NCBI GenBank assembly: GCA_017441705.1
Contig: JAFRWU010000003.1
Location: forward strand, 1 to 47,543
DNA length: 47,543 nucleotides
Origin: Clostridia bacterium
GTDB taxonomy: Bacteria > Bacillota > Clostridia > Oscillospirales > QAMX01
Direction of reading: 5' to 3'
Shown: in pieces, positions 1,750-46,795 of the stretch
How positions within the stretch are numbered: the first letter of the stretch is position 1
Layout of the letters: each line of letters opens with the position of its first letter
Position numbers and translations under genes: made by a program
The notes under the pieces: model-generated
Databases searched by the model: none
What the model was told of the DNA's origin: nothing
The model's input: the letters and a program-made list of their open reading frames with translations, nothing else

Positions 1750-1756
1750 AGCGTGA

Positions 1757-4007: not shown

Positions 4008-4020
4008 AGGAGGAACGCGA

Positions 4021-5040: not shown

Positions 5041-5068
5041 AAAGGGCGACATCAAAGAGAAGGAGAAA

Positions 5069-6178: not shown

Positions 6179-6181
6179 TCC

Positions 6182-18799: not shown

Positions 18800-18833
18800 C
18801 TTCTACACTCTCCTTCTTTGGTTTGTTTTCTTT

Positions 18834-18862
18834 ATCTTATCATAAACCGGCGCGGGGCTCAA
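18834..18862 (-). promoter_or_regulatory. Promoter of the GH9 gene
   Basis: On the minus strand TTGAGC (18857-18862), 17 bp, TAAGAT (18834-18839), about 35 bp before the ATG. It is back to back with the radical SAM gene promoter. Confidence 0.65.
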
Positions 18863-18890
18863 CCGTTTTTTCGGGGAAGGCGAAGACGGT

Positions 18891-18919
18891 TTGACAGGAA
18901 ACGGCCGATCTGTTATGAT
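18891..18919 (+). promoter_or_regulatory. SigA promoter of the radical SAM gene
   Basis: TTGACA (18891-18896), a 17-bp spacer and TATGAT (18914-18919), about 45 bp before the GTG start. Confidence 0.85.
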
Positions 18920-18963
18920 GAGGAAAAGCGGCGTGGAAACGCGGTGGAGAAGGGGGCGGCGGC

Positions 18964-19839: not shown

Positions 19840-19910
19840 TCCCGGCTCCGTCTTGCTTTTCAAGGCGGGATATGATACAGATAAAAAAACTGAAAGGAGC
19901 TTGTGGAACG

Positions 19911-21080: not shown

Positions 21081-21124
21081 CGGCGCGGGAAACCCGCCTT
21101 CCCCCGCGGCGCAGCGAAAAACAA

Positions 21125-21154
21125 AAAGGCCTCGTCCCGAAGGATGAGGTCTTT
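21125..21154. terminator. Bidirectional terminator
   Basis: A 13-bp stem with one wobble pair (21125-21137 with 21142-21154) around CGAA, with A and T runs on both sides. It separates the serine hydrolase gene from the convergent YwaF-like gene. Confidence 0.8.
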
Positions 21155-21175
21155 CCTTTTGTCCGGATCCCGCCG

Positions 21176-21955: not shown

Positions 21956-21983
21956 ACTGTCTTTCCCCTTTCCCGCCGCGCCT

Positions 21984-22961
21984 TCAGAAGGCGACGCGGC
22001 CGTCTTTCAGAAGGATCCTCCACAGGTTTTCGGCAAAGAGCGAAAAGCCGTCGTCGTTCGGATGCACGGCGTCGGTGAAAAACGTCTTGTCCGCGGGGAT
22101 CAGAGAAGCGCCGTCCACCGGGAAAAAGCCGTGCTTTTCGGCCTCTCCGGCAATCAGGCGGCGAAACAGCGCGTGGTCGCCCGCCGGGCGCGTTTCCCCG
22201 TCGAACCGCGGCGTGGGCGTGATCGCGATCACGGGCTTCCCAGTGTAAAGAGACGCGAGGCGATCCATCGTCTCTTTCATCCGGCCGAGGAATTCGTCCC
22301 GGTCGTCGAAGCGGGAAAAATCGTTGGTCCCGAGCGCAAGAAAGACCGCGTCCGGATCAAAAGGCAGAGGCCTGATCGCGCCGGGGCGGAAAAAGTCGCC
22401 GCCGATCCCCTGGATCACGCTGTCCGCGTTGAAAAACAGGCTCGTCCTCCAGGCCCAGGAATTCACGTCGTAACGGGAATGCCACCCCTGCGTGAGCGAA
22501 TCGCCGATGAAAAGAAATCTCCGGTCGTACTTCTGCCGGACCGCGCTTTTCCCCTCCTCGATCTCCAGAAAGCGGAGCACGGCGTTTTCCCCGTGGCTTC
22601 CGAAGACCAGGGTCACCCGCCGGTTCCCCTTTCCGTTCCCCGCGGGCGAAAGGGCGCCGGGATCGATCACGGTATCCTCCCGCGGCGCAGGGGTCCATCT
22701 TTTGATCAGAACGCCGTCGATCAAAAGCTCCAGAGCCGATCCGCGCGCAAAGGCGAATCCGATCCTGCGGGCGTCGGTCACGAAGTCCAGCCGTACCCCG
22801 GTGGTCGCCCGGGTCGACTGCATGCCGTTCGGCCATGCGCGCGCCACTTCCCCGGTCTGCTCCTCGGTGCATTTGAAAAACGCGAGCCCTCCGTCTTCCT
22901 CCGCAAAAGCAAGCGCTCCGGCCGAAAGGCCCCGGATCTCCTCAGCAGTCAGTCGTTTCAC
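21984..22961 (-). CDS. SGNH/GDSL hydrolase with N-terminal beta-sandwich
   Basis: A 325-residue esterase. About the first 135 residues look like a beta-rich jelly roll. Then FIGDSLTQGW gives the catalytic Ser (155), FLALGTNDFSRFD the block III Asn, and DAVHPNDDG the Asp-His pair. This layout resembles carbohydrate acetylesterases (CE2-like), but the substrate is unproven. The start is GTG 22961, which has GAGGAAGAGGATCT in front; an upstream in-frame GTG at 22985 is possible. There is no signal peptide. It is the first gene of an operon with the YwaF-like protein. Confidence 0.85.
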   Translation of the reverse strand: MKRLTAEEIRGLSAGALAFAEEDGGLAFFKCTEEQTGEVARAWPNGMQSTRATTGVRLDFVTDARRIGFAFARGSALELLIDGVLIKRWTPAPREDTVIDPGALSPAGNGKGNRRVTLVFGSHGENAVLRFLEIEEGKSAVRQKYDRRFLFIGDSLTQGWHSRYDVNSWAWRTSLFFNADSVIQGIGGDFFRPGAIRPLPFDPDAVFLALGTNDFSRFDDRDEFLGRMKETMDRLASLYTGKPVIAITPTPRFDGETRPAGDHALFRRLIAGEAEKHGFFPVDGASLIPADKTFFTDAVHPNDDGFSLFAENLWRILLKDGRVAF

Positions 22962-23014
22962 AGATCCTCTTCCTCTTTTCCTCACTTTGTCCGGGCGATC
23001 GTCTCCCGTCCACG

Positions 23015-23038
23015 ATTATACACGAAACCCGCCGGAAA
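23015..23038 (-). promoter_or_regulatory. Promoter of the SGNH-YwaF operon
   Basis: On the minus strand TATAAT (23015-23020); 18 bp upstream a weak -35, CTGGCA. The -10 is consensus and lies about 55 bp before the GTG start. Confidence 0.55.
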
Positions 23039-23079
23039 TGCCAGAGGAGAAATCCTCCTCCGGGCGTTTTCGCACGGCG

Positions 23080-23108
23080 TTGTTTTTCCTTTTCGGATGT
23101 GATATACT
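23080..23108 (+). promoter_or_regulatory. Promoter of the UroD-like gene
   Basis: TTGTTT (23080-23085), 17 bp, TATACT (23103-23108), leaving a leader of about 75 nt before ATG 23188. Confidence 0.65.
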
Positions 23109-23187
23109 GTTTTCGAAAGAAAGGTCGTCTTCCGCCGGAGCGCCGTGCGCGAAGGGCGGATCTCAAAACCGGGACGGAGGGAAAAAC

Positions 23188-24243
23188 ATGCTGATCACAG
23201 AAGAACAGAAGAGACGCTACACCGCCTTCTGGAACCGCGAGCCTCTTGACCGCGCCTGCCTGTATCTCACTTCCTGGGACGGCAGCGCGCCCTTCCGCGC
23301 CCCGAAGGATCCGGAAGAGCAGTGGGGTGATCTGGCTTTCCGCGAGGAGCAGATCGTATACAACACCCTCCACACGCAATTCCACGCGGAGGGGTTCCCC
23401 TCGATCTTCACAAACTTCGGTCCCGGGAGCCTGGCCGCCTGCATCGGCGGGAGCTACAAATTCGCGCCGGCCACGGTGTGGTTTGAAAACGAGCCCTTTT
23501 TCGCCGCCGACTGGGAGACGAGACCGCCCGTCAAGCTCGATCGCGAAAGCAAAATGTTCCGGATGATCGAGGAGATGACCTCCCGCGAACTCCGCCACAA
23601 GGATCTCTTTATCACGTCCATCAGCGACATCGGCGGTACCTACGACGTCGTCGCTTCTCTGCGCGGCACGCAGAATCTGCTCTACGACATGTACGACGAT
23701 CCGGAGGAGGTCAAAAAGCTCCGGGACGAGATCGCGCCGATCTGGAAGGAATACTATCTGGAATACTCCTCCCTCCTTCTCCGGGAGCAGGGATGCATGT
23801 CGAGCTGGCAGCCGATCTGGTCGGACAAATCCTATTATCCCCTCCAGTGCGATTACAGCGCCATGATCTCCCCCGACATGTTCCGGGAATTCGTGCTTCC
23901 CGATCTCCGGGAGCAGACCGAGTATATGGACCGCTCCATTTACCATCTGGACGGCCCCGGCGAGATCCCCCATATCGATCTGATCCTCTCTCTGCCCCGT
24001 CTTTCGGCGATCCAGTGGGTGTCCGGCGCCGGCAACGCGCCGAATACCGATCCCTGCTGGTTCGACCTTCTCCGCCGCATCCAGAAGGCGGGAAAAGGCG
24101 TGATCCTTCTGGAGGTCGATCCCGCGGAGCTGGAGACGCTTTTCAAAAACATCAGCCAGAGGGGTCTTTACATCTGCGCCAACGTCCGGGACGCCCAGGA
24201 AGCCCGGGAAGTCGTCGAGATGGCGAAAAAACTGAATTTCTGA
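23188..24243 (+). CDS. Uroporphyrinogen decarboxylase-like (UroD superfamily) protein
   Basis: A 351-residue protein with a UroD-type TIM barrel. The family includes corrinoid or coenzyme-M methyltransferases as well as decarboxylases, and in Clostridia most members are not haem enzymes. The conserved GGTYDVVASLRGTQNLLYDMY and YHLDGPGEIPHIDLIL segments are seen; the His-x-Asp there could be metal- or substrate-binding. Databases often call such proteins trimethylamine corrinoid protein 2, without proof. GGAGG lies 7 nt before ATG 23188; the frame is open far upstream but has no start signal. No corrinoid protein gene is beside it. It is divergent from an SGNH-YwaF operon. Confidence 0.8.
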   Translation: MLITEEQKRRYTAFWNREPLDRACLYLTSWDGSAPFRAPKDPEEQWGDLAFREEQIVYNTLHTQFHAEGFPSIFTNFGPGSLAACIGGSYKFAPATVWFENEPFFAADWETRPPVKLDRESKMFRMIEEMTSRELRHKDLFITSISDIGGTYDVVASLRGTQNLLYDMYDDPEEVKKLRDEIAPIWKEYYLEYSSLLLREQGCMSSWQPIWSDKSYYPLQCDYSAMISPDMFREFVLPDLREQTEYMDRSIYHLDGPGEIPHIDLILSLPRLSAIQWVSGAGNAPNTDPCWFDLLRRIQKAGKGVILLEVDPAELETLFKNISQRGLYICANVRDAQEAREVVEMAKKLNF

Positions 24244-24269
24244 GGGCCCCTGTTCTCCTCTGCCGAAAG

Positions 24270-24308
24270 CCCCTTTCCGGTTCCTGTTTCGGGAATGCCG
24301 GAAAGGGG
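24270..24308. terminator. Terminator between the UroD-like and MBL genes
   Basis: CCCCTTTCCGG (24270-24280) pairs with CCGGAAAGGGG (24298-24308), extended by GC pairs on the outside. CTCTTTGTCTTTG follows on the plus strand. It lies between convergent genes. Confidence 0.75.
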
Positions 24309-24333
24309 GCTCTTTGTCTTTGAGGCCAGCCGC

Positions 24334-25131
24334 TCACTCGCTCTTTTCTTCCTCCGCGAGCATCCGGTCCAGTCCTTCCTCGCAGGCGCGAAGGAATCTT
24401 TTCCACTCGGTCGGATCGACGAAGGGGTTTCCTCCGTTTCCCATCCGGGAGAGCTTTCCCTCGGTATCGTTCTGCTGCGGATGGTTGCCCAGGACCACGT
24501 CGACCTTCTCCGGCGCGAGCTTCCGGAGGCCACGGCGGAAATCGTCCCGAAGCGAAAGCGGAAGCCCGCGGGAGCAAAGAAACGCGCGCGTCATGCTGTT
24601 GAGGCCGACGCCGCCGTGCATGGCCGCGGTCGCGGGGATCCCCCCGACCTTCGTTTCGATGAAGAACGCATAGGTCCCTTCGGTGTGTCCCGGCGCGTGG
24701 ACGACCCGGATCCTTCTGTCACCGAAGGTCAGGACGTCGCCGTCCGAAAAGACCGCCGCGGGCGTGAAGGTCTCTGCCGGGGGAAGGCCCAGTTCCTTCG
24801 CCCAGGAAAGGTCCCTTTCACCGGTCACGATATCCGCATCCTCCCGGCCGATACAGGTCCTTGCGCCGGTAAGCCTTACGATGGCGGCGGTATTGCCGAA
24901 ATGATCGATGTGACCGTGGGTGTGTATCACGGCCGTCACGTCGGCGAGCGACAGGCCGAGAGCTTTCAGGCTTTCCCCGATCCCCTCCAGCATACCCGGA
25001 AAGCCGGTGTCGAGAAGGACGATCCCTTCGTTTGAAAGAATGGCGTGAACCGAAACGCTCCTGTCCCCGACGAAGGCGATATCATCGGTCAGCATCGCGG
25101 GTCTGATCGCGTTGTCTCTGTCGACCGGCAC
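24334..25131 (-). CDS. MBL-fold metallo-hydrolase
   Basis: A 265-residue metallo-beta-lactamase-fold hydrolase. HTHGHIDHFGN is the zinc motif, APGHTEGT and GNHPQQND supply further ligands. Members hydrolyse thioesters, lactones or phosphodiesters; the exact job is unknown. The start is GTG 25131: an ATG at 25152 also opens the frame, but its coding sequence contains the ribosome site AAAAAGGAG, which is 8 nt before the GTG. It is divergent from the alpha-galactosidase gene. Confidence 0.85.
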   Translation of the reverse strand: MPVDRDNAIRPAMLTDDIAFVGDRSVSVHAILSNEGIVLLDTGFPGMLEGIGESLKALGLSLADVTAVIHTHGHIDHFGNTAAIVRLTGARTCIGREDADIVTGERDLSWAKELGLPPAETFTPAAVFSDGDVLTFGDRRIRVVHAPGHTEGTYAFFIETKVGGIPATAAMHGGVGLNSMTRAFLCSRGLPLSLRDDFRRGLRKLAPEKVDVVLGNHPQQNDTEGKLSRMGNGGNPFVDPTEWKRFLRACEEGLDRMLAEEEKSE

Positions 25132-25166
25132 GGAAATCACTCCTTTTTCCAATGACTTGCATCCGT

Positions 25167-25195
25167 ATTATACATCAAAATGAAAAGCGGGGCAA
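25167..25195 (-). promoter_or_regulatory. Promoter of the MBL hydrolase gene
   Basis: On the minus strand TTGCCC (25190-25195), 17 bp, TATAAT (25167-25172), about 35 bp before the GTG start. Divergent from the 25225-25253 promoter. Confidence 0.65.
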
Positions 25196-25224
25196 TCCTT
25201 TCCCTTTCCGGAGAGCGAAAACGA

Positions 25225-25253
25225 TTGACGCGCGGTGCGGCCGGTCGTATAAT
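25225..25253 (+). promoter_or_regulatory. Promoter of the alpha-galactosidase operon
   Basis: TTGACG (25225-25230), 17 bp, TATAAT (25248-25253), about 40 bp before ATG 25295: eleven of twelve consensus bases. Confidence 0.85.
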
Positions 25254-25294
25254 GAGGTGAAGAAAACACTATACGTCTACAAGGAGGAAACGCC

Positions 25295-27334
25295 ATGCAG
25301 CCGGATCGTTTTTGGAAAGAGTGTTTCGAGGAAGGAACGCCCCTGTCGTTCCGTTACGGCGGCGAACCCGCCGAAACGCGGTTCGGGCCTTTGACGCGCG
25401 TCCCGGAGGAAGACGGCGAAGGATATGAGGCCTGGGGGCGCACGCTTCTCTTTTCCGACGGTGAAAAAACGCCGACGCGGGTTTCCGGGCCGCAGATCTT
25501 CCGCGCCGAGCTGAAGATCCGGCGCTATGCCCCGGGAGCGGTGGAATGGTGGACGGAGGTATCCGGGGAGGGGGTCTTCGATTCCCGGATCGTCGACCGT
25601 CTCTGCTACGCCGATCTGACCCTTGACGCCGGGATGCGCTTTCACGGGAGCGACTGGAAGTATCCGCGGCTCATCTGGGCGCGCGGATCGCTGGCTCAGG
25701 AGAACGATTTCCAGCCGGTCAGCGAGAGCTTCGTTCCGGAGGGCCGGCACGTGCTTTCCTGCGGCGGCGGACGGTCTTCCTCCGGCGTGATGCCCTATTT
25801 CAACCTGCAGCTTCTGGAAGAAAGCGGCGTTCTGTTCGCCGTGGGCTGGAGCGGACAGTGGAAGGCCGTGCTGGAGCGCCGTCCCGGCGAAACGCGGCCG
25901 ATCCGCGTCGTCTGCGAAATGGACGACGCTTCCTTCCGCGTACGTCCGGGAGAAACGCTCGTGCTGCCGAAAATGCTGGCTCTTCCCTGGGAAGGGAAGC
26001 TGGAGGATTCCTTCAACGCCTTCCGCCGGTTCATGCGGCGGAACGTCCTCCCGAAATACGGCGGAAAGCCCCTGGAAGGATACGTCTTTCTGCGCACCTG
26101 GGGCGGCCTTTCGCCGGAGATCCACAAGGCCAAGCTCCTGAACGTCAAAAAGCACCGCCTGCCTGCCGAGCTTTACCAGATCGACGCCGGGTGGCACGGG
26201 GACGAGACGACGCCCGAAAGCAAGCACGATTATTTCGATCTGTGGGCGCAGACCGTCGGCGTATGGAAGCCTCTGCCGGCTCTCTTCCCCGACGGCATCG
26301 GCGCTCTCGGCGAGCGGTGCCGGGACGCGGGGATGGGGTTCGCCGTCTGGTTCGAGCCGGAACGGATGCCCTCCTGGAACCGGATCGTTTCGGAGCACCG
26401 GGAATACTTCATCGGTCCCCGGCTTCCCGACGCCGCGGGGAACGGAGAAATCTGGGACGGCCGGTACTTCCTGATGCTGAATCTCGGATACGAACCCGCG
26501 CGGAAGTGGATCGCCGATCAGATCTCGGCGGTGATCGAGGAGGCGAATATGGAGGTTTTCCGCCTCGATTTCAATTACGAGCCTCTGCCCTTCTGGCATT
26601 ACAACGACGAGCCGGACCGCCGCGGCGTCACCGAAATCCGATACGTCAACGGTCTTTACGCCATGCTGGACGAGCTCCTCCGCCGCCATCCCGGACTGAA
26701 GATCGACAATTGCGCCTCCGGCGGCCGCCGTCTGGACTACCGCATGTTCCGGCGCGGCATGCCCATGATCTGCCGCAGCGATTACTTCTGCGCCCGCGAC
26801 AACGAACCCGATCCGAAACAGGCCCACACCTACGGCCTTTCTCTCTGGATCCCGGCTCATGCCGATTCTCTCGGCTCCTGCATCGGGCACACGCCCGAGT
26901 CGATGGACACCTACCGCGTCAGAAGCTCGCTTTCCTCCGGCGTCGGCATGACCGCGCCCTGGTGGGAGCTTTCCGAAGAGGAAGCCGCCTGGTACCGGAA
27001 AATGCTTTCCGAGGCGCGTGAGGTGCGGGAATACGCGTCGGGCGATTTTTACCCCCTTACCGGATATTCCCTGAGCCCGCTCGACTGGATGGCCTTCCAG
27101 TTCGCCCTTCCGGAGGAGGGGCGCGGCATGGCGATGGTCTTCCGGAGAGAGGAAAGCGCCACGGAAAAAATGACCTTTGCGCTCCGGGGGATCGGGAAGG
27201 AAGCTCGTTACCTTCTCCGCGACGCCGACCGGGGCGCGCTCGGCGAGGTTTCCGGGGAGGAGCTCTCGCGTCTTTCGGTGGAGATCCCCGAGCCGCGCGC
27301 CAGCCGGATCCTCTTTTATGAAAAACTCCGCTGA
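25295..27334 (+). CDS. GH36 alpha-galactosidase
   Basis: A 679-residue GH36 enzyme: N-terminal beta-supersandwich (to about 290), (beta/alpha)8 barrel and a C-terminal beta domain. YQIDAGWHGD and FAVWFEPERM are barrel landmarks. RLDFN carries the nucleophile Asp425 and CRSDY the acid/base Asp496; KIDNCASGGRRLDYR is the conserved GH36 segment between them. It hydrolyses alpha-1,6-galactosides such as melibiose and raffinose, here intracellularly (no signal peptide). Galactinol or raffinose synthase-like activities of GH36 are less likely given the full bacterial architecture. AGGAGG precedes ATG. It leads an operon with a second glycosidase-like gene 126 bp on. Confidence 0.92.
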   Translation: MQPDRFWKECFEEGTPLSFRYGGEPAETRFGPLTRVPEEDGEGYEAWGRTLLFSDGEKTPTRVSGPQIFRAELKIRRYAPGAVEWWTEVSGEGVFDSRIVDRLCYADLTLDAGMRFHGSDWKYPRLIWARGSLAQENDFQPVSESFVPEGRHVLSCGGGRSSSGVMPYFNLQLLEESGVLFAVGWSGQWKAVLERRPGETRPIRVVCEMDDASFRVRPGETLVLPKMLALPWEGKLEDSFNAFRRFMRRNVLPKYGGKPLEGYVFLRTWGGLSPEIHKAKLLNVKKHRLPAELYQIDAGWHGDETTPESKHDYFDLWAQTVGVWKPLPALFPDGIGALGERCRDAGMGFAVWFEPERMPSWNRIVSEHREYFIGPRLPDAAGNGEIWDGRYFLMLNLGYEPARKWIADQISAVIEEANMEVFRLDFNYEPLPFWHYNDEPDRRGVTEIRYVNGLYAMLDELLRRHPGLKIDNCASGGRRLDYRMFRRGMPMICRSDYFCARDNEPDPKQAHTYGLSLWIPAHADSLGSCIGHTPESMDTYRVRSSLSSGVGMTAPWWELSEEEAAWYRKMLSEAREVREYASGDFYPLTGYSLSPLDWMAFQFALPEEGRGMAMVFRREESATEKMTFALRGIGKEARYLLRDADRGALGEVSGEELSRLSVEIPEPRASRILFYEKLR

Positions 27335-27460
27335 CGTGGCACGCCCGAAGCGGATCAGACATAGAACGCCCTTCGCCGGCAAAGCGGACCCGGCGCGGGG
27401 GACACGGTCTTTCTCCCCCGGGGCGGCATGCAGAACAGCAAAAAGAAGGAGGTCCTGCCT

Positions 27461-29536
27461 GTGATCACGCTGGAGAGCGAAAGCCTCCGTCTGGAGTTTT
27501 CAAGCGAAAACGGCGCCCTGACAAAAATGATTTCCCGGGACACCGGATGGATCGTTCACCGCCGTCCGGAGCTCGGTCTTTCCTGGCGGCTTCTGGTTCC
27601 CGTGAACGACGAGCTCAGGAACAACCCCGTTTACGGGGAAAAGCAGCCGGTCTCCTCTTTCGAAACGGGCGAGGGCTTCGTTCGCTTCCTCTGGAACGAC
27701 GTCCTTTCGGAGCGGGCCGGAAGGCTTCCCATCCGCATCGTGACCGAGATCCGGGCCGAGGGCCGCGCCGCGGTCTGGCGCACCCGGGTGGAGAATCAGA
27801 GCCCGTACACGGTGGAAAGCGTTTACAGCCCCTATATCGGCGATCTCTCCCATCCGGAGGACGCCCGGTGGTTCAGGACCTTCCTGCCCGGATACTCGTC
27901 GCCCCAGGAATGGGATCTCTGGCCCCGGTTCGAAACGCACGAAGGCGATCACAGCACCGATTTCCCCACCCAGTTCAATTCCGACGCCATGGGGGCGGGC
28001 AATCCCTTTTCCCCCTGGTTTTTGATGCGGGATGAAAAGCAGGGGCTTTCCGCCTCGGTGCGGTCGGCGGGAAACGAGTTCGTCGCCTGGCACTGCGAGC
28101 TGCGCCCCGGCTACGGCGAGGCCATGGACGCGCGGGTTCCGGAAACCGATGAGATCGCGGGAAAGCCCGTTCACATCCGGTTCGCGCCGGTGCATATGTG
28201 CTGCCTGGCTCCGGGGAACGCGGTCGATCTCACGCCCGTCGCGCTGGAGGCGTTTACCGGCGGCTGGCAGAAAGGCGTCGATTGCTACGGACGCCGGCGG
28301 GCGGCCTTTTCGCCGACGGCAGAGGCTCCCCGCTGGATGAAGGAGCCCCACGCGTGGCTGCAGCTTCACGTCAATTCCCCGGAGGACGAGCTCCGCATGC
28401 GCTTTACCGAGCTTCCGCGGGTGGCGGAGGAGTGCGTGAAATACGGCGTCAGGGCCATCCAGTTGGTCGGCTGGAACGACGGCGGCCAGGACCAGGGCAA
28501 TCCCTCCCACGATCCCGATCCCCGGCTCGGCACCCGGGAAGAGCTCCGGGAAGCGATCCGGGAGATCCGCGCCATGGGGATCAAGCTGATCCTTTTCGTG
28601 AAATTCACCTGGGCCGACCGGGGGACCGAACGGTTCCGGAAGGATCTTGTCCGCCTTGCGGTGAAGGACCCCTACGGCGATTATTACATGCACGGCGGCT
28701 ACGAATACCAGACCCCCGCCCAGCTTCTCGGCATCAACACCAAGAGGCTGATCCCCATGTGCTTCGGGAGCGAAGAGTATCTCGATCTCTGCTGCCGGGA
28801 ATTCCAAAAGGTGCTCGAGCTGGAGCCCGACGGCATCCTCTTCGACGAATGCTGCCACCACGGGCCCGCACTCCTGTGCTTCGATCCTTCGCACGGGCAC
28901 AGGATCGGATGGCCGGTCTACGCAAACGATCTGGAGCTGGTCCGGCGCTTCCGGGCCGTGCCGGGGCTTCCCGGGGATTTTCTCATTGCGGGAGAGGCGC
29001 TTTACGACCGGGAATTCGAGGGATACCAGCTTTCCTACTTCCGTTCGCGCGGCCGGGGGCATATCCCCTTCGCCCGTTATCTGCGCCCCCGCGGGGAAAT
29101 CATGACCGCCGTGTCCGGTTTCTGCGACCGGAACATGATCAATCAGTGTCTGATGGACCGGTATATCATCAGTTACGAACCCTATAATTTCAAGGGCTGG
29201 CTGCACGATTTCCCGGACACCGTGGCCTACGGCCGGAAGATGGACGCGCTCCGCACCGCCTGCCGGGACTATCTCTGGGACGGGACCTACCGGGACACGC
29301 TCGGCGCTTCGGTCGTGACGGAGGACGGGACTTCCTGGTCTTCCTACGCCCGCTTTGAAAGAGAGGACGGGCGTTCGGCTCTGGTTGCCGTCAACTACGG
29401 GGACGAGCCCGTCACGGTGACGGCGTCCCTGGAGAGCGGGACTCTTTCCCGCTGGCGCACGGTAGACGACGAGACCTGGCATGAAGGCGCGGGAAAGATC
29501 CCGATCCCGCCGCGCTCGGCCGTGCTGATCCTCTGA
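27461..29536 (+). CDS. Large glycoside-hydrolase-like protein (DUF6259-type)
   Basis: A 691-residue protein with a beta-rich N-terminal part (galactose-mutarotase-like, to about 300), a central TIM-barrel-like domain and a beta C-terminal part. LILFVKFTWADRG, GILFDECCHHG and DFLIAGEAL look like barrel strands carrying acidic residues; the Asp and Glu of these are catalytic candidates. I recognise the general type (DUF6259) but not a characterised family. GTG 27461 is taken as start because AAGGAGG lies 8 nt upstream; an ATG at 27428 would place that ribosome site inside the gene. It follows the GH36 alpha-galactosidase and probably shares its substrate or pathway. No signal peptide. Confidence 0.75.
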   Translation: MITLESESLRLEFSSENGALTKMISRDTGWIVHRRPELGLSWRLLVPVNDELRNNPVYGEKQPVSSFETGEGFVRFLWNDVLSERAGRLPIRIVTEIRAEGRAAVWRTRVENQSPYTVESVYSPYIGDLSHPEDARWFRTFLPGYSSPQEWDLWPRFETHEGDHSTDFPTQFNSDAMGAGNPFSPWFLMRDEKQGLSASVRSAGNEFVAWHCELRPGYGEAMDARVPETDEIAGKPVHIRFAPVHMCCLAPGNAVDLTPVALEAFTGGWQKGVDCYGRRRAAFSPTAEAPRWMKEPHAWLQLHVNSPEDELRMRFTELPRVAEECVKYGVRAIQLVGWNDGGQDQGNPSHDPDPRLGTREELREAIREIRAMGIKLILFVKFTWADRGTERFRKDLVRLAVKDPYGDYYMHGGYEYQTPAQLLGINTKRLIPMCFGSEEYLDLCCREFQKVLELEPDGILFDECCHHGPALLCFDPSHGHRIGWPVYANDLELVRRFRAVPGLPGDFLIAGEALYDREFEGYQLSYFRSRGRGHIPFARYLRPRGEIMTAVSGFCDRNMINQCLMDRYIISYEPYNFKGWLHDFPDTVAYGRKMDALRTACRDYLWDGTYRDTLGASVVTEDGTSWSSYARFEREDGRSALVAVNYGDEPVTVTASLESGTLSRWRTVDDETWHEGAGKIPIPPRSAVLIL

Positions 29537-37941: not shown

Positions 37942-40900
37942 TTATCTGCGGCGCTTTTTTGCGAGGCGCTTCCCTGCGACGGACAGGACCGCGGCAAGTC
38001 CGAACAGACCGGCCGAAGCCAGGACGAATCCGATTGCCCGGTTCGTCCCGCCGCCGGCGCCGGGCGCATCCGGTCCTTCCGGTCCGGCCAGCTCCTTCCC
38101 CGTCCGGAAGGCGTCCGCGGGATTGACAAGATAGATCTCCTCGTTGGACTGCCGGTTGCCTTCCGCATCCACCAGCGACACGTAAGCGCCGCGCAGGCCG
38201 TCCTTGAGACCGTCTTTCCATACGCCGTCCATATCGACGTCGAAATAATAGGTCCGGCCGACGGGCTCTTCGCTCTCCGGATCGAACCGGCAGAGGAGCT
38301 CTTTTGTGGGCAGATCGAATCTGAGCTCTCTCGCTTTCTTCGCGGGATCTCCGTAATCCAGTCTGACCCTGACGATCGGCGTCTTTTCTCCGACCAGCGC
38401 GTTGTTGGTAATGGCGGTGCTGATGACGTGTCTGCCGCCGATCAATGCGTTCCTCGCCGTCAGGGAGGTGTCGTCGGCGAGCATTTTCGCCGAATTGACC
38501 ACGTCGTCAAGGCTGCCTTCGTACCGGTATCCGTCGGCCACCTCTACGATGATCTCGTGCTCTTCGTTCTTCTTCCAGGCGGGGCTGGGCCGGATCAGGA
38601 TCCGGTCGACCCTCGTGTCGCCGGTATACAGTTCGTTCCCGGTGTAGAAGTAGCCCTCTCCGCTGAAATCGGTTTTGCCGTTGGTCATCATCAGGCGGGT
38701 CCCGTTTTCGTCCTTCACCACGTAAGGGACCGGATTCTCCCGGCCGTAACCGTAATTCCTGACCGTGACGAACGCCTCGATGCAGGGCTGACCCGTAAGC
38801 ACCAGATAGTCCGGGATCCGCACCTGCGTGACGAGCAGTCCCTTGTCGGCGTTCTGCTTCCACATTTTGATATTGCAGGCATAGCGGGATCCCTCCCCGG
38901 CCGGCGCCGCATAGGCGACGGTCAGACCGCTTGCCCGGCACTCGTCCGGGTTATACGCGGCGGTGAAGCAGCTGATCTTTTCGCCTTTCGCGAATTTCAG
39001 ATCCAGCGGCCCGTGAAGCGTGCAGGAGAGACCGCCCGACCCGTTCCGGTCGGTGGTGATGGTGTAAATCTTAACGACGTTGCCGCCTTTTTCCGCCGTG
39101 CCAGCTTCTACGTCGACCTCGTAATCTCCGACGACGCCGATCAGGTAGACGGCGGACTGGTTGTTGTTGGTGATCATGGCGTAATGGTTGTCGACCGACA
39201 CGACGCCGGAGCCGTTGATCACCTTTTCCACCGTCCATTCGTAATCGGAGGGATCGGTCCCCCTGGCTTTCTTCGACATCCAGTAGACGCTGTCGCCGGC
39301 GATAAAGTAGCTGCAGCCGTTCAGATACTGCCAGTTGGTGATGATCGAATCGAAGGATACCGTGCCGTCCCGGATACTCTCCACGTTGACCATGCCCTCG
39401 ATATCGATGCGGAAATTGCACCGGAGCGTCTCCTCATAGTATCCGTTGGCGCCGTAGCCTTTGACGTAGAGGTATTTGTCCGAGGATTTGCTGCCGTCCA
39501 CCGTCCAGAAGCTCGGCTCGTTCGGCGCGACGGCTCCGGTGGAATAGACCTTGTTCCTGCCCAGATTGCGGAAGGAGCGTTCCGCCGGATTTCCGTCCGC
39601 GCCCCAGGAGATATAATAGTCGGTGGTTTCCGGGACCGCGCCCAGAAGCGCCTTCAGCCCGTCGACGCTCTTCCCGTTGTCGTCCCGGAGACGGGTCGCG
39701 GCGTATGCGACCGCCGAAAAGCTTCCGCTGCCCACGGGAAGCGGCGCGCTGTAGAAAACCTGTCCCTTTGCCTCGGGGTCGCTCGCGATCACCGAGCTTA
39801 CCGTGTATTCCCGATCCAGATCGACCACGATGGACGCGACGTCCGTGCTCCGCATCCTCGCATTCTCATCCGTGAGCGTATTGTCCGCCAGGATCGCGCC
39901 GATATAGACCTTGTTGCAGTTTTCGGGATCGTCCCGGTCGGTCTTGTTGGGGACGACGACGAATTCCGAGACCGATCTGGTCTCCCCTTCGGGAAGCCTG
40001 ACCTTATAAAGGCCGGAATAGAGATCCCCCGTCTCCCTGTTCTGGAGCTGATAATAAATATCGGTCCTCTGCCCGTTGGAGGCAATGCGGAAAAGCGCGG
40101 TACAGTCCTTCGTCGCGGCAAACTGAAGCTGGGGGTCCGGATAAATGCTGGAATCCACGGGAACGATGCTCGAATTCCCTTCCAGCCGGTCGTCCGCGCT
40201 CCGGAGCGTATAGAATTCGTCATGGGGGACTCCATCCTCCGCAGACGCCTGCAGGACGAATTTTTCCGCGCAGTCCGCGAGGGAAAGATCGTTGAATTCC
40301 ATTCCCTTCAGGGCTTCCCCGAGTTTATCATACTCACCGTTGCTGTCGGCAAGCCGCTGCGCTCCGTTCAGGCAGTCCAGACTGACGGTCCCGCTGTAGA
40401 AGAGGATATAGTATTCAATTTTCAGACCGTACAGCACGTCGATAAAGCTGTGCGGTTTCCCGAATTCCGTCCGTCCTTTCCCGATCACCGTCGCGATATC
40501 AAAGTCGACGTATCCCGTGGCACAGGCGCCGAGCACGCCCTTGACGCCCACGCCGCCGAAGACCGAGAAGCCGATGATCACCTCGATCCGGGCGTTGACG
40601 TCCGTGCCGTCGTCGGTGGAGTATTTCCATTCCCTGTCCTGGTCGTGTCCGGTGGGCGGCCGGTCCATGCCGAAGTTGACGTTGAGCGCCGTCTTGACGG
40701 CGATATGCCCTTCGAATCCGATATAGACGGGAAGGATGACGGGGCCGACCGGAAGGAGGAAGTATTCGGTGACGCCCGCGGTGAAGCTGCCGCTGAACAG
40801 GATGCCGCCGCTTCCGTAGTTGTCGTTCGTTTCCTTGTTGTAGCAGGAGCGCAGGAAAAGCGAAAAGCTCATCGAGAAATCGTAGTTGAAGTTGCTGACG

Positions 40901-42381
40901 CATTTGATCTTTCGCTGGGATTCCAGGATCTTGTCGCCCTTTTTGACCTTTTCCGTGTTCTCCCAAAAGCTCTTTTCGAAAATCTCCAGCGGATCCTGAA
41001 GATTCTCGGTATCCTTGGGATTCCAGGATTTCTCGAACAGAGAGCTGAATTTGTATTGGGTGTTCGGATCGAGCTGAGTGATGTCGTAGGAGGCCATCAG
41101 GATCATGGTGCCGTCCGGGAACATGCCGAAGCTGACCGGGACCTTGAGCATCTGCATCGTTTGATTCAGGAAGCCGCCGCCGGACATCCGGTCGGAAACG
41201 CTGCCGTCCAGAGCCTTCGTGGTGACGGGCACCTCGGTTTCCCCGGCGGCGGGATTCACGACCGCGTTTTCCACGGTCACGTGTTCCAGAGCGAACGCTT
41301 CGTTTCCCAGCCTGACGCTGACCCGGTCTCCGTCCTTCAGAAGCCCGGCGCTCTGTTCCGCCCACCTTCTGGAGACGGTGTAGACCCGGGTGTTCGAGTC
41401 GTAGGGGTATTCGGAGACGTCGCCGATCGACAGGATCGTCTCGCCCCGGCTGTCGGAGAAGATCTCCGCCGAAGACGGGAATTCGGCGTTCCCCCGTTTG
41501 GTGACGATGACCTTCAGGGTCAGATCGGCCGTGTTCATATTCACGAGGGAGAGCTTGGTCTCCTCGTTCACCATATCCTTGCCGGCCAGATCCACGCCGC
41601 GGATATATACCTCGTTTTCTTCGGCTTCCTCCAGCACGACGGTGAAATGCCTGCCCTGGCCCATAAGCTTGTCCAGGATGGAGACCGAACGGTACCCTTC
41701 GGCCTGGATATCCACAAGCCCGAAGAATTCGTCGGGAAGCTCGTCGAACACCGCGATGCCGGGCGTGTTGCCGCCGGTCGCCGGAACGCTTTTCGTGACG
41801 CGCCTGCCCGACGCGTCCAGATAGGAGATGGTGACCAGCGCGTTGGGAACGCCCATGCCGTCCGGCCCCTTGACGAACCAGCTCATGGCGTCCTTGTCGA
41901 CGACAAAAACCCAGCCGCCGGCGTTGGAATCGCCGCCGAGGACCTTGACTTTTTCTTGCCGGTTGTTCGTCAGGCCGATCTCGGATCCCATCAGGAGATT
42001 GCCGCTCTGCAGGTATTTTTTCAGTCCGCCGGTCGAGAGGAAATGCTCGACTCTGCCGAGAACCAGGGAAACGTCCCGGTCCTCCGCCGGCTCGAAGCCG
42101 GAGACGACGTCGATCGCCGAGGAGAACCGCTCCTTCGCCTCCTCCGAAATCATGGAGTCGATCACGTCCGCGTCCTCGTTTGAAACCCGGCCGCAGACGT
42201 CGGCAGGATCCGTATAGGTCGGAAGCTTTGAGGAATCGGTGACGTTTTCGAGCATCTTTTCGTCCGCCGCGGGGAAGCCGGCCGCCTCTTTGCCGACGCC
42301 ATCGGCGAAGGCGCCCGCCGTACCTGTGAAAATCAGCACCGCCGTCAATAGAAGGCTGAGGATCGCCTGGATCTTTTTCAT
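37942..42381 (-). CDS. Very large surface/secreted protein with C-terminal membrane anchor
   Basis: A 1479-residue protein. Signal peptide 1 to about 27 (hydrophobic LLTAVLIFTG, then AFADG). A carboxypeptidase-regulatory-like Ig fold is likely at about 165-250. The middle (about 480-720) contains Gly-rich hydrophobic strands (VILPVYIGFEGHIAV, VIIGFSVFGGVGVKGVLG) that I cannot assign. The C-terminus has a Pro/Gly linker, one membrane helix (about 1447-1466) and a basic tail KKRRR. There is no LPxTG motif, so it is not a sortase substrate of the classical type. Its function is unknown; adhesion or extracellular scaffold is a guess. GC content and codon use resemble its neighbours. The ribosome site (TTAGGA) is weak, and no clear promoter is seen. 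Confidence 0.75.
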   Translation of the reverse strand: MKKIQAILSLLLTAVLIFTGTAGAFADGVGKEAAGFPAADEKMLENVTDSSKLPTYTDPADVCGRVSNEDADVIDSMISEEAKERFSSAIDVVSGFEPAEDRDVSLVLGRVEHFLSTGGLKKYLQSGNLLMGSEIGLTNNRQEKVKVLGGDSNAGGWVFVVDKDAMSWFVKGPDGMGVPNALVTISYLDASGRRVTKSVPATGGNTPGIAVFDELPDEFFGLVDIQAEGYRSVSILDKLMGQGRHFTVVLEEAEENEVYIRGVDLAGKDMVNEETKLSLVNMNTADLTLKVIVTKRGNAEFPSSAEIFSDSRGETILSIGDVSEYPYDSNTRVYTVSRRWAEQSAGLLKDGDRVSVRLGNEAFALEHVTVENAVVNPAAGETEVPVTTKALDGSVSDRMSGGGFLNQTMQMLKVPVSFGMFPDGTMILMASYDITQLDPNTQYKFSSLFEKSWNPKDTENLQDPLEIFEKSFWENTEKVKKGDKILESQRKIKCVSNFNYDFSMSFSLFLRSCYNKETNDNYGSGGILFSGSFTAGVTEYFLLPVGPVILPVYIGFEGHIAVKTALNVNFGMDRPPTGHDQDREWKYSTDDGTDVNARIEVIIGFSVFGGVGVKGVLGACATGYVDFDIATVIGKGRTEFGKPHSFIDVLYGLKIEYYILFYSGTVSLDCLNGAQRLADSNGEYDKLGEALKGMEFNDLSLADCAEKFVLQASAEDGVPHDEFYTLRSADDRLEGNSSIVPVDSSIYPDPQLQFAATKDCTALFRIASNGQRTDIYYQLQNRETGDLYSGLYKVRLPEGETRSVSEFVVVPNKTDRDDPENCNKVYIGAILADNTLTDENARMRSTDVASIVVDLDREYTVSSVIASDPEAKGQVFYSAPLPVGSGSFSAVAYAATRLRDDNGKSVDGLKALLGAVPETTDYYISWGADGNPAERSFRNLGRNKVYSTGAVAPNEPSFWTVDGSKSSDKYLYVKGYGANGYYEETLRCNFRIDIEGMVNVESIRDGTVSFDSIITNWQYLNGCSYFIAGDSVYWMSKKARGTDPSDYEWTVEKVINGSGVVSVDNHYAMITNNNQSAVYLIGVVGDYEVDVEAGTAEKGGNVVKIYTITTDRNGSGGLSCTLHGPLDLKFAKGEKISCFTAAYNPDECRASGLTVAYAAPAGEGSRYACNIKMWKQNADKGLLVTQVRIPDYLVLTGQPCIEAFVTVRNYGYGRENPVPYVVKDENGTRLMMTNGKTDFSGEGYFYTGNELYTGDTRVDRILIRPSPAWKKNEEHEIIVEVADGYRYEGSLDDVVNSAKMLADDTSLTARNALIGGRHVISTAITNNALVGEKTPIVRVRLDYGDPAKKARELRFDLPTKELLCRFDPESEEPVGRTYYFDVDMDGVWKDGLKDGLRGAYVSLVDAEGNRQSNEEIYLVNPADAFRTGKELAGPEGPDAPGAGGGTNRAIGFVLASAGLFGLAAVLSVAGKRLAKKRRR

Positions 42382-42489: not shown

Positions 42490-43500
42490 TCAGGTATTCT
42501 CCGTTCCGCCGGAAGGTTCCTTGCGGCTTATCACCCAACTCGTCTCGTGGATGCCGGTCTCGAACTGCGAGGTGTCGAGCTTCCAGTCCGCGCCGCTGCG
42601 GAAACGCTTGCGGAACGTCTTCCCCAGAAGCCCCTTTTCCTCGAGATGGATGTAGCAGGCCCGGTCACAGGCGCGGCCGCAGATGGAGGTCCGGTAGAAA
42701 TGCTTGGCGGGGGGATAAAAATAAGTGTCGTTCAGGATCTCCCGGGCGCCTTCGGCGTCGAATTCGGCGGTACCGTTGATGACGTCCATCCGGTTTTCCA
42801 GTTCCGCGTAGGCCTCCGGCGGCATGAAGGGGTTCTTGCTGCCGTTGGCGCCGTTGTAGTAGACGGCGCAGCGCCAGGTGTCCATCGTGCCGTCCTCTGC
42901 GAGGGCATGGCCGGGACAGGCCCGGATGCATTCGCCGCAGCGGTCGCAGAGCGTTTCGGTCACGAGAGGCGTCTCCTCCAGCTCCGCATCCGTAAGGATG
43001 AAGCAGTACCGGATGAACGGCCCGTAGTCCTTCGTCAAAAGCGAGTGGATCATGCTCTCCTCGCCCAGGCCGCAGAGCACGGCGCAGTGCAGGAAATCGA
43101 TCTGGTTTTCCGCCGTGACGCCCCTGCGGACGTCGGAATAGTCCACCTCCGGGTTCGTCCCGTCCGTTTCGGCCATGATGAGCTGGTTGCGGCGCTGGGG
43201 GATGGCCTCGAAGCCCTCCTCCTCGATGAGATTGGCGACGTTGATGAGTGCCATCGGCATGACCGTCTCTTCCAGGTTCTCCACGCCCATGGTGGTATAC
43301 TGATAGTAGGTCGTGCCCTCCTCGACGCAGCGGTAGATGCCGCGAAGCACACGGAAACCCAGTCCGATCACCGTTTTCGTGCCGGGGAAGACCCGGAACA
43401 CGGCGTCGTCCGGCGAAAACCGCGACACGGGGGCGAATCCGACGATATCCGCGTCGAAGCGTTTGGCGCAAGCCTCGATCAAGCTTCTTAAGTCTCTCAC
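42490..43500 (-). CDS. Double [4Fe-4S] protein, QueG/reductive-dehalogenase-like paralogue 3
   Basis: A 336-residue protein of the epoxyqueuosine reductase/reductive dehalogenase-like class. The N-terminal part aligns with the two upstream paralogues (YYQYTTMG ... NLIEEEGFEA). CGLGEESM and GPFIRYCFILTDAEL precede the first cluster CDRCGECIRACP (Cys185, 188, 191, 195). The second cluster ligands are Cys211 (TWRC) and CGRACDRAC (Cys274, 278, 282). It begins at GTG 43500, which overlaps the previous stop (GTGA) with GGAGG 10 nt upstream; an in-frame ATG at 43557 lies inside the neighbour and lacks a site. It has no signal peptide. Cofactor and substrate are unknown. Confidence 0.85.
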   Translation of the reverse strand: MRDLRSLIEACAKRFDADIVGFAPVSRFSPDDAVFRVFPGTKTVIGLGFRVLRGIYRCVEEGTTYYQYTTMGVENLEETVMPMALINVANLIEEEGFEAIPQRRNQLIMAETDGTNPEVDYSDVRRGVTAENQIDFLHCAVLCGLGEESMIHSLLTKDYGPFIRYCFILTDAELEETPLVTETLCDRCGECIRACPGHALAEDGTMDTWRCAVYYNGANGSKNPFMPPEAYAELENRMDVINGTAEFDAEGAREILNDTYFYPPAKHFYRTSICGRACDRACYIHLEEKGLLGKTFRKRFRSGADWKLDTSQFETGIHETSWVISRKEPSGGTENT

Positions 43501-44399
43501 AGTCTTCCCGCCTCCTTCAGATGGTGCCAGCATACGGTTTCGCAGCTCTTTCCGCACAGGCAGGGCAGGTAGCCGAAATGCGTGGGCGGGAGGAAGCGCA
43601 GTTTGGGGTAGATCGCCTGCGCGCTCTCCCGGTCGAAGCGCTTTTCCCCGTTCACGATCGCTTCCCGCTCCGGGTCGTCCCGCAGAAAGTCGTCGGTCAT
43701 GAAAGGATTGGACTTATGTGCGCCGCGATAGTAGACGCTGCACTGCCAGGTGTCCACGCCGTCTTCGGATACGGCGCGTCCGGGGCAGGCTTCCATGCAT
43801 TTCCCGCAGCGGTCGCACAGGGTCCCCTCGAAAGGCGGGTCGCATTCCAGCGGCATGTCCGTGATGATATAAACAAATCGCATGAAGGTGCCGTACTTCG
43901 GCACGATCACCCGTCCATGGAGACCGGGGCTGCCCAGTCCGCAGACCTCCGCGGCGCGGTTGAAGTCGATGATCACGTCCGGCGCAGGCTTGCCTTCTGC
44001 GACGGGGGTGGAGAATTCCAGCTCGTAGATCCGGTTGACCTCGGGATTGGCGGTCTTGTCGCCCTTGATCCGAAGACCGGGGATGAAACGCTGCAGGCAG
44101 GCGTCGTAGCCCGCGTCCTCGATCAGCGCGCCCATCTTTAAAAGGAAGATCTCCGAAAAGCTTTCGTCTATGTACTTGACGCCGAGATTGGCGTAGTTGT
44201 AGTACTGCCGCCTGTCCTCCATCGCATGGAACAGGCCCCGGGGGACCTTGATGCCGAAGCCGAGGATGGTCTTCGCCTTCGGCAGGATAGCGAAGGGGTT
44301 TCTCTGCGGCGGTTCGTCCCGCATCCGCTCCACGTCGCCGATCCCGCAGATCGTCGCGCCCAGTTCCGAGGCTTTCTCTTTGATATCTTTGGCCGTCAT
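43497..44399 (-). CDS. Double [4Fe-4S] protein, QueG/reductive-dehalogenase-like paralogue 2
   Basis: A 300-residue protein with the same layout as its neighbours. EVCGLGSPG and FVYIITDMPLE come first; the first cluster is CDRCGKCMEACP (Cys195, 198, 201, 205); the second set is Cys220 (TWQC) plus CGKSCETVC (Cys282, 286, 290). NPFMTDDFL after Cys220 matches NPFMPPEAY and NPFVPKEVF of the others, a signature of the set. It lies 13 bp after the gene at 44413 and overlaps the next by 4 bp, so the set is translated together. Known relatives use cobalamin or bind it weakly; no B12 motif is obvious here. Confidence 0.85.
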   Translation of the reverse strand: MTAKDIKEKASELGATICGIGDVERMRDEPPQRNPFAILPKAKTILGFGIKVPRGLFHAMEDRRQYYNYANLGVKYIDESFSEIFLLKMGALIEDAGYDACLQRFIPGLRIKGDKTANPEVNRIYELEFSTPVAEGKPAPDVIIDFNRAAEVCGLGSPGLHGRVIVPKYGTFMRFVYIITDMPLECDPPFEGTLCDRCGKCMEACPGRAVSEDGVDTWQCSVYYRGAHKSNPFMTDDFLRDDPEREAIVNGEKRFDRESAQAIYPKLRFLPPTHFGYLPCLCGKSCETVCWHHLKEAGRL

Positions 44400-44412
44400 A
44401 CTCCGCCCTCCG

Positions 44413-45492
44413 TCAGCGATCCATCTTCCAGGGCTTGCCGGTGCGCAGCGGTTCCTTGAACCGGCCTTCCATGCAGCCGCCCTTCTTTTCCAGCATGCTC
44501 ACACAGCCGCGGATGCAGCCTCCGCATTTTGCCATGTTGTAGCCCACCCAGCTGGGGAAATACTTCTCCAGCGCCACGTAGACCTTCGTGACCTCCTTCT
44601 CATTCGCCTCGGCCGTACGGCCTTCGAGCAGGTCCAGGGAGCCGTCCTCGTTTTTGTCGAAGACCTCCTTGGGCACGAAGGGGTTGTAATACCGGCCCGC
44701 GTGGGTGTAGAAGGCATAGCAGCGCCACATGTCGATATCGCCCCACTCGCAGATCTTCCCGGCGAGATTGACCTTCACCGACTTCCCGGAGTTGATCGCG
44801 GGGATGCAGCCGCCGGGGCACTCGCGCACGCAGGCGCCGCAGCGGCGGCAGAGCGGCGGGCCGGAGTACATCTCGTCGTATTCCAGCTCGGCGTCGGTGA
44901 AGATGAAGGCCAGACGCTGCAGGGGGCCGAACTCCGGCGTCAGGAGCATCTTGCTCCAGCCCATCTCGCCCAGTCCGCAGATGACCGCCGCCAGCCGGAA
45001 GCTGAACTGCAGATCCGGCGGGACCTTGTCCGGAGCCACCTCGCGGGTATACTGCACGCTGCGATGATGGGCTGTCTTGCCCTTGGCTCGTTTGCTGATC
45101 TCGATCTGCTCTTCCGGGGAGAGGGTGTTGCCGGGGCTGCCGTCCATGTCGGAGACCACGCCGCGGGCGCCGGTATTGCGATAAACTACCGCTTCGTAGC
45201 CCTCGTCCTCGATGACCTTGCCCACGTGGTACAGCACCGCCGGCGCGTAGATCTCGTTGATGCCGCCGTAGGCCATGGAGGGGTACTGGTAGAACTGCGT
45301 GCCCTCCTCGATGCCGCGCTGCACGCCCCGCGGAATGCGGAACGCCATCGCGATGCAGCTCTTCGCGCCGGGGAAGAGATACCGCGGATCCATCTCCGGC
45401 GGCGCGCTTGCGAAGCGGGACATCGGACCGATCCCGCATTTGTCGGCGCCGGCTTCCAGCGCGGCCTTCTTGATCATCTCACTCGTCAGCAT
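44413..45492 (-). CDS. Double [4Fe-4S] protein, QueG/reductive-dehalogenase-like paralogue 1
   Basis: A 359-residue protein, the longest and most divergent of the three. An insertion of about 35 residues (about 110-150) lies in the N-terminal half. ICGLGEMGWSKMLLTPEFGP and LAFIFTDAEL are close to the active-site lead-in of QueG and RdhA proteins. The first cluster is CRRCGACVRECP (Cys215, 218, 221, 225). Cys258 (MWRC) and CGGCIRGC (Cys323, 326, 330) make the second; here the spacing is CxxCxxxC instead of CxxxCxxxC. It overlaps the upstream U32-like gene by 14 bp. No Tat signal or RdhB-like anchor is present, so it is not a classical respiratory dehalogenase. Confidence 0.85.
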   Translation of the reverse strand: MLTSEMIKKAALEAGADKCGIGPMSRFASAPPEMDPRYLFPGAKSCIAMAFRIPRGVQRGIEEGTQFYQYPSMAYGGINEIYAPAVLYHVGKVIEDEGYEAVVYRNTGARGVVSDMDGSPGNTLSPEEQIEISKRAKGKTAHHRSVQYTREVAPDKVPPDLQFSFRLAAVICGLGEMGWSKMLLTPEFGPLQRLAFIFTDAELEYDEMYSGPPLCRRCGACVRECPGGCIPAINSGKSVKVNLAGKICEWGDIDMWRCYAFYTHAGRYYNPFVPKEVFDKNEDGSLDLLEGRTAEANEKEVTKVYVALEKYFPSWVGYNMAKCGGCIRGCVSMLEKKGGCMEGRFKEPLRTGKPWKMDR

Positions 45493-46480
45493 AGTTTTCC
45501 TCCAGATCGATCATAGCCTCTTCCAGGTTTGAATATATAAGCTTCCCGTCCTCCACGCGGCTTTCGATGCGGCTGTTTTCCAGCACGTACGGATAGATCA
45601 GCCCGGCGTGGTTCGGTTCCAGGAGCTCCAGGACGTTCCCGCGGAAGCGCCCCGCCGCATAGGCCTTCAGGATGCGCAACGGGCAGGGGCTGACCCGCGT
45701 CGCCAGCTTCAGGCCCTCGAAAAGCTCTTCGTACAGCCCGGCGTCTTCCGGGCGGAGAAAGCTCGTGCGCGTCAGCAGCGCCGCGCGGTTCTCCGGTTTT
45801 GAAAGGTAGCGCCGGCAGATCCCCTCGAAGGCGTAGCCGTTGTCCATCGCGGCGATCTCTGCCTCGTGCGAGACAAGATTGTCGTGGAACACGTGCGCTG
45901 AGCAGTGATTCAGGCAGCCGCTGTTGGCAAGGCCGTAGAGCTTCTTCCCGTTTTTGCCGCACCAGTCCCGCAGCTCGGCCAGCCGGGTGAGATCCCGGTT
46001 GTACTCCCGCGCCGCGTAGAAGCTGTCGAAGCAATCCGCAACGTAGTCCATCCCCTCGACGCTGCCGATGCTCATGTTGACCGAGGCCCGCGTGTCCAGG
46101 CCCGGGAAATTTTCATGGATGAACCGCGCGATCAGCGGGGAGGTCGTGGTGATCCCCCGCAGCGCGTACCGCCCGGCCAGGTAGTCCACCGTATTGCCGA
46201 CCTTCAGGAAAAACGCCCGGGACAGGCTGTCGCGGCCGTAGCAGGTGGCGTTGAAAAGCAGATTCAGCGCAATGCCATGATCAGAGAACGCCGCCAGGTC
46301 TTCCTCCTGGCGCCGCTGGGCTTCCCAGGGCGTCAGGCCGCCGGTCAGCGGCAGGCTGTTCCGCCCGTTGGCGAAATCGCCCCAGGAAAAGTATACTTCG
46401 CCGATGCGGTCCTTCAGACAGAGGATCGCCTCCCTGAAATCGGGCGTCCCGCATAACTGATACCCCACGGAAAGCTTCAC
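45479..46480 (-). CDS. U32 peptidase-family-like protein (putative Fe-S TIM-barrel)
   Basis: A 333-residue protein leading a four-gene operon. NSGCLNHCSAHVFHDN resembles the Cys-rich box of the U32 family (UbiU/UbiV, TrhP, RlhA), whose members carry a [4Fe-4S] cluster and take part in oxygen-independent hydroxylations; further Cys residues (GICRRY, SPCPLR) could complete the cluster. Repeated short beta-alpha units suggest a TIM barrel. The start is GTG 46480 with AGGAG 8 nt upstream. It overlaps the first Fe-S paralogue by 14 bp, so it is co-translated with it. Assignment to U32 is by motif only; the leader of about 165 nt can fold over the ribosome site. Confidence 0.65.
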   Translation of the reverse strand: MKLSVGYQLCGTPDFREAILCLKDRIGEVYFSWGDFANGRNSLPLTGGLTPWEAQRRQEEDLAAFSDHGIALNLLFNATCYGRDSLSRAFFLKVGNTVDYLAGRYALRGITTTSPLIARFIHENFPGLDTRASVNMSIGSVEGMDYVADCFDSFYAAREYNRDLTRLAELRDWCGKNGKKLYGLANSGCLNHCSAHVFHDNLVSHEAEIAAMDNGYAFEGICRRYLSKPENRAALLTRTSFLRPEDAGLYEELFEGLKLATRVSPCPLRILKAYAAGRFRGNVLELLEPNHAGLIYPYVLENSRIESRVEDGKLIYSNLEEAMIDLEENYADE

Positions 46481-46653: not shown

Positions 46654-46682
46654 ATTATAGTCCAAAACAAACGAGATTTCCA
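46654..46682 (-). promoter_or_regulatory. Promoter of the Fe-S operon
   Basis: On the minus strand TATAAT (46654-46659), consensus, with a weak -35 TGGAAA 17 bp upstream. It implies a 5' leader of about 165 nt before GTG 46480. Confidence 0.55.
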
Positions 46683-46763: not shown

Positions 46764-46795
46764 AGCCCTTCGCTGCATACCCACAGCGAAGGGCT
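46764..46795. terminator. Perfect 12-bp hairpin, terminator-like
   Basis: AGCCCTTCGCTG (46764-46775) pairs with CAGCGAAGGGCT (46784-46795) over an 8-nt loop. The T tract is better on the minus strand (TATTTTTT) than on the plus. It stands between two divergent promoters with no gene ending there, so it may be the remnant of a gene lost here or an insulator. Confidence 0.6.

Follow-up and report, generated by a model that had tools for sequence, protein, structure and literature searches.

Do the four closely spaced genes at one end of a clostridial DNA stretch form a single system, and what would such a system do? The window (the whole stretch of DNA analysed, 47,543 nucleotides) carries an operon on its minus strand, spanning 46480-42490, in which a U32-like gene is followed by three diverged paralogues, here called p1, p2 and p3. 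The features are as follows.

45479..46480, minus strand: U32-like gene, GTG start, 333 aa; predicted TIM-barrel protein with four invariant Cys
44413..45492, minus strand: p1, 359 aa; double [4Fe-4S] protein of the QueG/RdhA superfamily, the most conserved member
43497..44399, minus strand: p2, 300 aa; second QueG/RdhA-like paralogue, 31% identical to p1
42490..43500, minus strand: p3, 336 aa, most likely GTG start within a 355-aa ORF; third paralogue
46654..46682, minus strand: candidate promoter-like site ahead of the U32-like gene, 10/12 consensus matches, from a consensus scan only

The U32-like gene and p1 overlap by 14 bp, p1 and p2 are separated by a 13-bp gap, and p2 and p3 overlap by 4 bp; this layout had been described in the original prediction, and the coordinates confirm it. 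A start of p3 at 43557, giving 355 aa, was rejected. The GTG at 43500 is the most likely start, because it gives the conserved 4-bp overlap with p2 and agrees with relatives. Upstream of the U32-like gene, a strong terminator-like hairpin is found on the minus strand (46764-46795), where there is no evident gene for it to terminate. On the strand of the operon, p3 is followed directly by a 1479-aa ORF (37942-42381) with an apparent signal peptide and a C-terminal hydrophobic stretch, for which a Pfam search gave no match.

Every motif previously noted in the four proteins is present in the translations. The paralogues share a TDxxL motif (TDAEL in p1 and p3, TDMPL in p2), CxxCxxCxxxCP (p1 215-226, p2 195-206, p3 185-196), W-[RQ]-C (WRC in p1 and p3, WQC in p2), NPF[MV] (NPFV in p1, NPFM in p2 and p3) and a final set of three Cys (CGGCIRGC, CGKSCETVC and CGRACDRAC, respectively), and the U32-like protein contains NSGCLNHCSAH. 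In the alignments, the eight Cys of the double [4Fe-4S] module are 100% conserved (87/87 p1, 79/79 p2 and 78/78 p3).

To place the operon among its relatives, one genome per species was scanned and the best 80 loci were kept (p1 at 78-90% identity). Nearly all come from gut metagenome assemblies, and where record titles name a host it is mostly a herbivore (ruminants, deer and rabbit, with 'Lapin' read as rabbit). The order U32>p1>p2>p3 recurs on one strand: the U32-like gene precedes p1 in 79/80 contigs, p2 follows p1 in 79/80, and p3 is present in 78/80. The missing members are U32 in L047, p2 in L013, and p3 in L013 and L040, the last two loci being at contig ends. About 50 of 77 loci show the 4-bp overlap of p2 and p3; L081 has the two naturally fused in frame as a single ORF, with some residues lost within the p2 part. 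Correlations between distance matrices, which carry no control for shared descent, are 0.89 for p2-p3, 0.82 for p1-p3, 0.80 for p1-p2, and 0.62-0.65 for U32 against each paralogue. In a class survey of 391 genomes, the distribution of the operon is patchy. A U32-like gene is found in 22 genomes besides the window's own, all 22 of which also have a p1-like gene; among genomes without a U32-like gene, a p1-like gene is found in only 3. The idea of one system would have failed had the paralogues rarely been adjacent elsewhere; instead they and the U32-like gene are neighbours across the best 80 loci, in a fixed order among related contigs. The four genes are kept together and are one conserved unit. 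Since the module Cys are invariant and the gene order recurs across 80 contigs, the pattern of motifs, Cys conservation and order is far beyond chance.

The relationship of the paralogues to known families was addressed with profiles, phylogeny and structure models. None reaches the family cut-offs of TIGR00276 (QueG, 200 bits; p1 27.0, p2 43.5, p3 37.2) or TIGR02486 (RdhA, 160 bits; p1 39.8, p2 50.9, p3 36.5), the latter being the best NCBIfam match for p1 and p2. Against sequences of solved structures, phmmer with p2 found QueG 5d08 (E 1.2e-9) and PceA (E 4e-7), and a joint p1-p3 profile found RdhA 8q4h (7e-19) and QueG (1e-16). An ML tree was built from 12 QueG, 9 RDase, p1, p2, p3 and two groups of simpler relatives, with limited sampling of other uncharacterised relatives. 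In this tree, QueG (100/100) and RDases (100/97) are each supported, and everything else falls in one clade (99/99), in which p1, p2 and p3 are each a single group and p2 and p3 are sisters (100/99). Thus, p1-p3 and their simpler relatives make up a third clade, distinct from both QueG and RdhA. As each paralogue is a single group, the triplication is older than all sampled genomes, with all three copies retained. A canonical QueG identity for p1-p3 was rejected on the low scores, the missing C-terminal domain and the tree.

The AlphaFold model of p1 (pLDDT 80.9, with a low-confidence loop at 108-161) matches QueG 5d6s in the PDB with Z 17.7 over 207 residues, and dehalogenases with Z 15.3-16.4 (RDase 8q4h, 16.4). 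The predicted fold of p1 is thus of the nitroreductase type. In QueG and RdhA this fold holds a base-off cobamide. The QueG/RdhA-like identity originally proposed for the paralogues stands for architecture, from the fold matches of p1, and does not stand for family membership: p1-p3 belong to neither QueG nor RdhA, because their scores are far below the cut-offs and their clade is separate, yet they are built like both.

The U32-like protein has no PF01136 match and no family up to E 1 in Pfam, and no family was found in NCBIfam; it has a phrog_5757 peptidase E match (6e-10). Profile search against PDB sequences gave 5d88 alone, weakly (E 0.09), a match that is settled by the fold: the model (pLDDT 90.8) is a TIM barrel whose best PDB match is 5d88 (U32 Mk0906; Z 17.9, 224 residues, rmsd 3.3; next match 12.8). 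The structure predictions called for by the original prediction, made here for p1 and the U32-like protein singly, thus returned the QueG/RdhA-type and U32-type architectures. Four Cys are invariant (86/86) at C80, C189, C193 and C222 in alignment numbering, corresponding to C80, C188/189, C192/193 and C221/222 in the window's protein. Many U32-like relatives carry a C-terminal motif of the type C-x3-C-x2-C-x2-C (e.g. CSKDCQGCNYC), which is not found in the window's copy and its near relatives.

The surroundings of the operon give indications of function. In most loci a divergent AraC-type gene lies upstream (61 hits in 69 loci with enough flank), a small cupin gene lies between p1 and p2 in about 30/78 loci, a Gfo/Idh/MocA gene is downstream of p3 in 20 loci, and a DUF5696 glycosidase-like gene is found within 1.5 kb in 15. 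GH3 is found between AraC and U32 in L009 and L101, and an EamA transporter gene near the operon in L021 and L028. Among 100 near genes, GH3 was counted 3 times, DUF5696 4, DUF6259 2 and beta-lactamase-like genes 5, and none of these is among the best 25 rows for 100 far genes, a comparison that is suggestive only; apart from the recurrent genes, enrichment is modest. Next to the copy in the window there is no AraC, cupin, Gfo, DUF5696 or GH3 gene, and a close AraC orthologue is also not found elsewhere in the genome, which does encode a B12-binding-domain protein. Overall, the association with AraC, cupin, Gfo/Idh/MocA and glycoside-hydrolase-like genes points to carbohydrate or glycoside catabolism.

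Two further gene neighbours are radical SAM proteins resembling the tungsten-cofactor maturase TIGR04317, below cut-off, one between U32 and p1 (L007:9057-9980) and one directly downstream of p3 (L180:4890-5882). Elsewhere in the window, 489-8385 looks like a sulfated-glycan utilisation locus, with sulfatases (2589-4004 and 6182-7570), several Gfo/Idh/MocA-type oxidoreductases and xylose-isomerase-like TIM barrels. Further glycan genes lie in 16457-29533: GH9 (16457-18799), a beta-lactamase-fold hydrolase (19779-21077), a melibiase-like gene (25295-27331) and DUF6259 (27428-29533).

Simpler relatives are of two types. Type B has a single p1-like gene and a U32-like gene; AraC adjoins in L096, L097 and L178, GH28 polygalacturonase-like genes adjoin in L174 and L177, and in L179 the pair shares its operon with genes for DUF4432, an arabinose-isomerase-like protein and an FGGY kinase. 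Type C (L167-L171 and L181) has two QueG/RdhA-like paralogues, mostly with AraC, and no U32 nearby; it looks like a second, related undescribed system.

The reading we favour, to which we give a roughly even chance, is that the operon encodes an inducible, AraC-controlled catabolic set of cobamide/Fe-S reductases which, together with a U32-type Fe-S barrel, would process a plant sugar or glycoside in anaerobic gut bacteria. We infer the substrate, cobamide binding, complex formation and the direction of the chemistry as follows. Ferredoxin or flavodoxin would supply electrons, which would travel via the two clusters of the module to a cob(II/I)amide; p1 would contain this cofactor, and probably p2 and p3 as well. 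The cob(II/I)amide would reductively cleave or reduce a C-O type bond, the substrate being a sugar, a sugar acid or an aglycone set free from plant glycans. Either ahead of the reductase step or following it, the U32-like protein, holding a single [4Fe-4S] cluster, would work on this substrate too, through O2-independent hydroxylation or other, related Fe-S chemistry. An interaction between p2 and p3 is most likely, and a p1-p2-p3 complex is plausible.

Active-site residues bear on how many of the paralogues would be catalytic. The Arg at the position of PceA R305 and NpRdhA K488 is invariant (p1 R193 87/87, p2 R174 79/79, p3 R164 78/78), a position that is mostly aromatic in QueG. At the position of the RdhA Tyr, the gapless alignment places Glu in p1-p3 (p1 E80 85/87, p2 E79 77/79, p3 E78 78/78). 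Profile alignment of type B against RdhA supports this assignment, and other alignments open a gap and leave the invariant Y70 as an alternative; in most two-gene relatives the position is Tyr, also depending on the alignment. In p1-p3, Glu probably stands where RdhA has Tyr. PceA Tyr246 is the proton donor (PMC5500849), and in the favoured reading a conserved acid near the cobalt, this Glu, would take that role in p1-p3. The more specific proposal, that three cobamide reductases of the third clade work as a heteromer, with Glu for Tyr in every member, and serve carbohydrate or glycoside catabolism coupled to a U32-type barrel, is put forward tentatively; it would give B12-type reductive chemistry a new physiological use. 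Possible, but likewise a minority view, is that p1 is the sole catalyst and that p2 and p3, carrying no cobamide, serve it as scaffold or electron-transfer subunits and supply it with electrons. p1 has diverged far less (mean p-distance 0.15, compared with 0.33 and 0.35 for p2 and p3), and a long conserved insert (residues 108-157) and an Asn at the position of PceA Asn272 (Asn106) occur in p1 alone; p2 and p3 are a translationally coupled pair that was fused once. However, the active-site Arg and the Glu are retained in p2 and p3 (97-100%), as is an acidic residue ahead of a GLG motif, and pure electron carriers would not need these.

Whether a cobamide is the cofactor at all is a related question. 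The proteins might instead be nitroreductase-like with another cofactor, or be CblC-like cobamide handling factors: after QueG and RdhA, the next PDB matches of the p1 model are CblC (B12-binding, Z 10.2) and CblD, and a search for a cobalamin riboswitch near the operon found none. This is doubtful, as the drop in Z from 15.3 to 10.2, the full two-cluster module and the Arg point to the reductase branch.

Compared with the proposed catabolic reductase set, an RNA-modifying system is considerably less probable. QueG acts on tRNA (PMC4646009) and U32 proteins hydroxylate tRNA and rRNA (PMC11574389), so that both superfamilies have RNA-modifying members, and the window's genome has no canonical QueG (no match over the TIGR00276 cut-off). 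However, the match of the p1 model to QueG ends at about residue 254, without the C-terminal helical repeat domain (QueG residues 258-372; PMC4646009), and the patchy presence, AraC neighbour and glycosidase linkage fit catabolism; in addition, canonical U32 genes are already present elsewhere in the genome. The absence of the QueG helical domain and the catabolic linkage thus make this role less likely. Least likely, and improbable in our view, is a true reductive dehalogenase system acting on natural organohalides: TIGR02486 is the top NCBIfam match for p1 and p2 and the Arg is shared, but scores are 37-51 bits against a cut-off of 160, the clade is apart from all nine RDases, the RdhA Tyr is probably Glu, and there is no twin-arginine start.

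Two reactions are known for the QueG/RdhA fold: dehalogenation and the reduction of epoxyqueuosine. If the catabolic reading is true, this widespread third clade would bring cobamide reductive chemistry into fibre digestion in the herbivore gut, and U32 barrels would gain a partner beyond quinone and RNA hydroxylation. The one-reductase and two-reductase relatives form an evolutionary series that is testable gene by gene. As the original prediction had suspected, no described system with the four-gene layout was found in the open-access literature. The nearest known proteins compare as follows.

With QueG (5d6s, 5d08), the paralogues share the eight-Cys double [4Fe-4S] module and, in the p1 model, the N-terminal nitroreductase-type fold. 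p1 differs in lacking the C-terminal helical repeat domain, its model aligning only to QueG residues 1-254, and 94-140 residues follow the first cluster motif in p1-p3, compared with mostly 170-190 in QueG. The DYH motif, present in QueG rows that reach that region, is absent from p1-p3, which have Arg where QueG is mostly aromatic, and which are triplicated and operonic with a U32-like gene; scores against the QueG profile span 26-44 bits, far from its 200-bit cut-off. With RdhA (PceA 4uqu, NpRdhA 4ras, 8q4h), the core fold, the cluster module and the Arg (PceA R305) are shared, and p1 probably also has the equivalent of PceA Asn272; the differences are the absence of a twin-arginine start, the probable Glu at the Tyr246 position and the separate clade. 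With the U32 proteins UbiU/UbiV, RlhA, TrhP and Mk0906, the U32-like protein has the TIM barrel (Z 17.9 to Mk0906, 5d88) and four invariant Cys in common. The canonical U32 cluster motif is CX6CX15CX3/4C, and in UbiV the first Cys is far upstream (PMC6747719), as it also is in the window's protein. However, unlike UbiU/UbiV, RlhA and TrhP, the U32-like protein departs from the canonical motif with a spacing of its own, C-x(about 108)-C-x3-C-x28-C, and its partners are QueG/RdhA-like proteins rather than a second U32.
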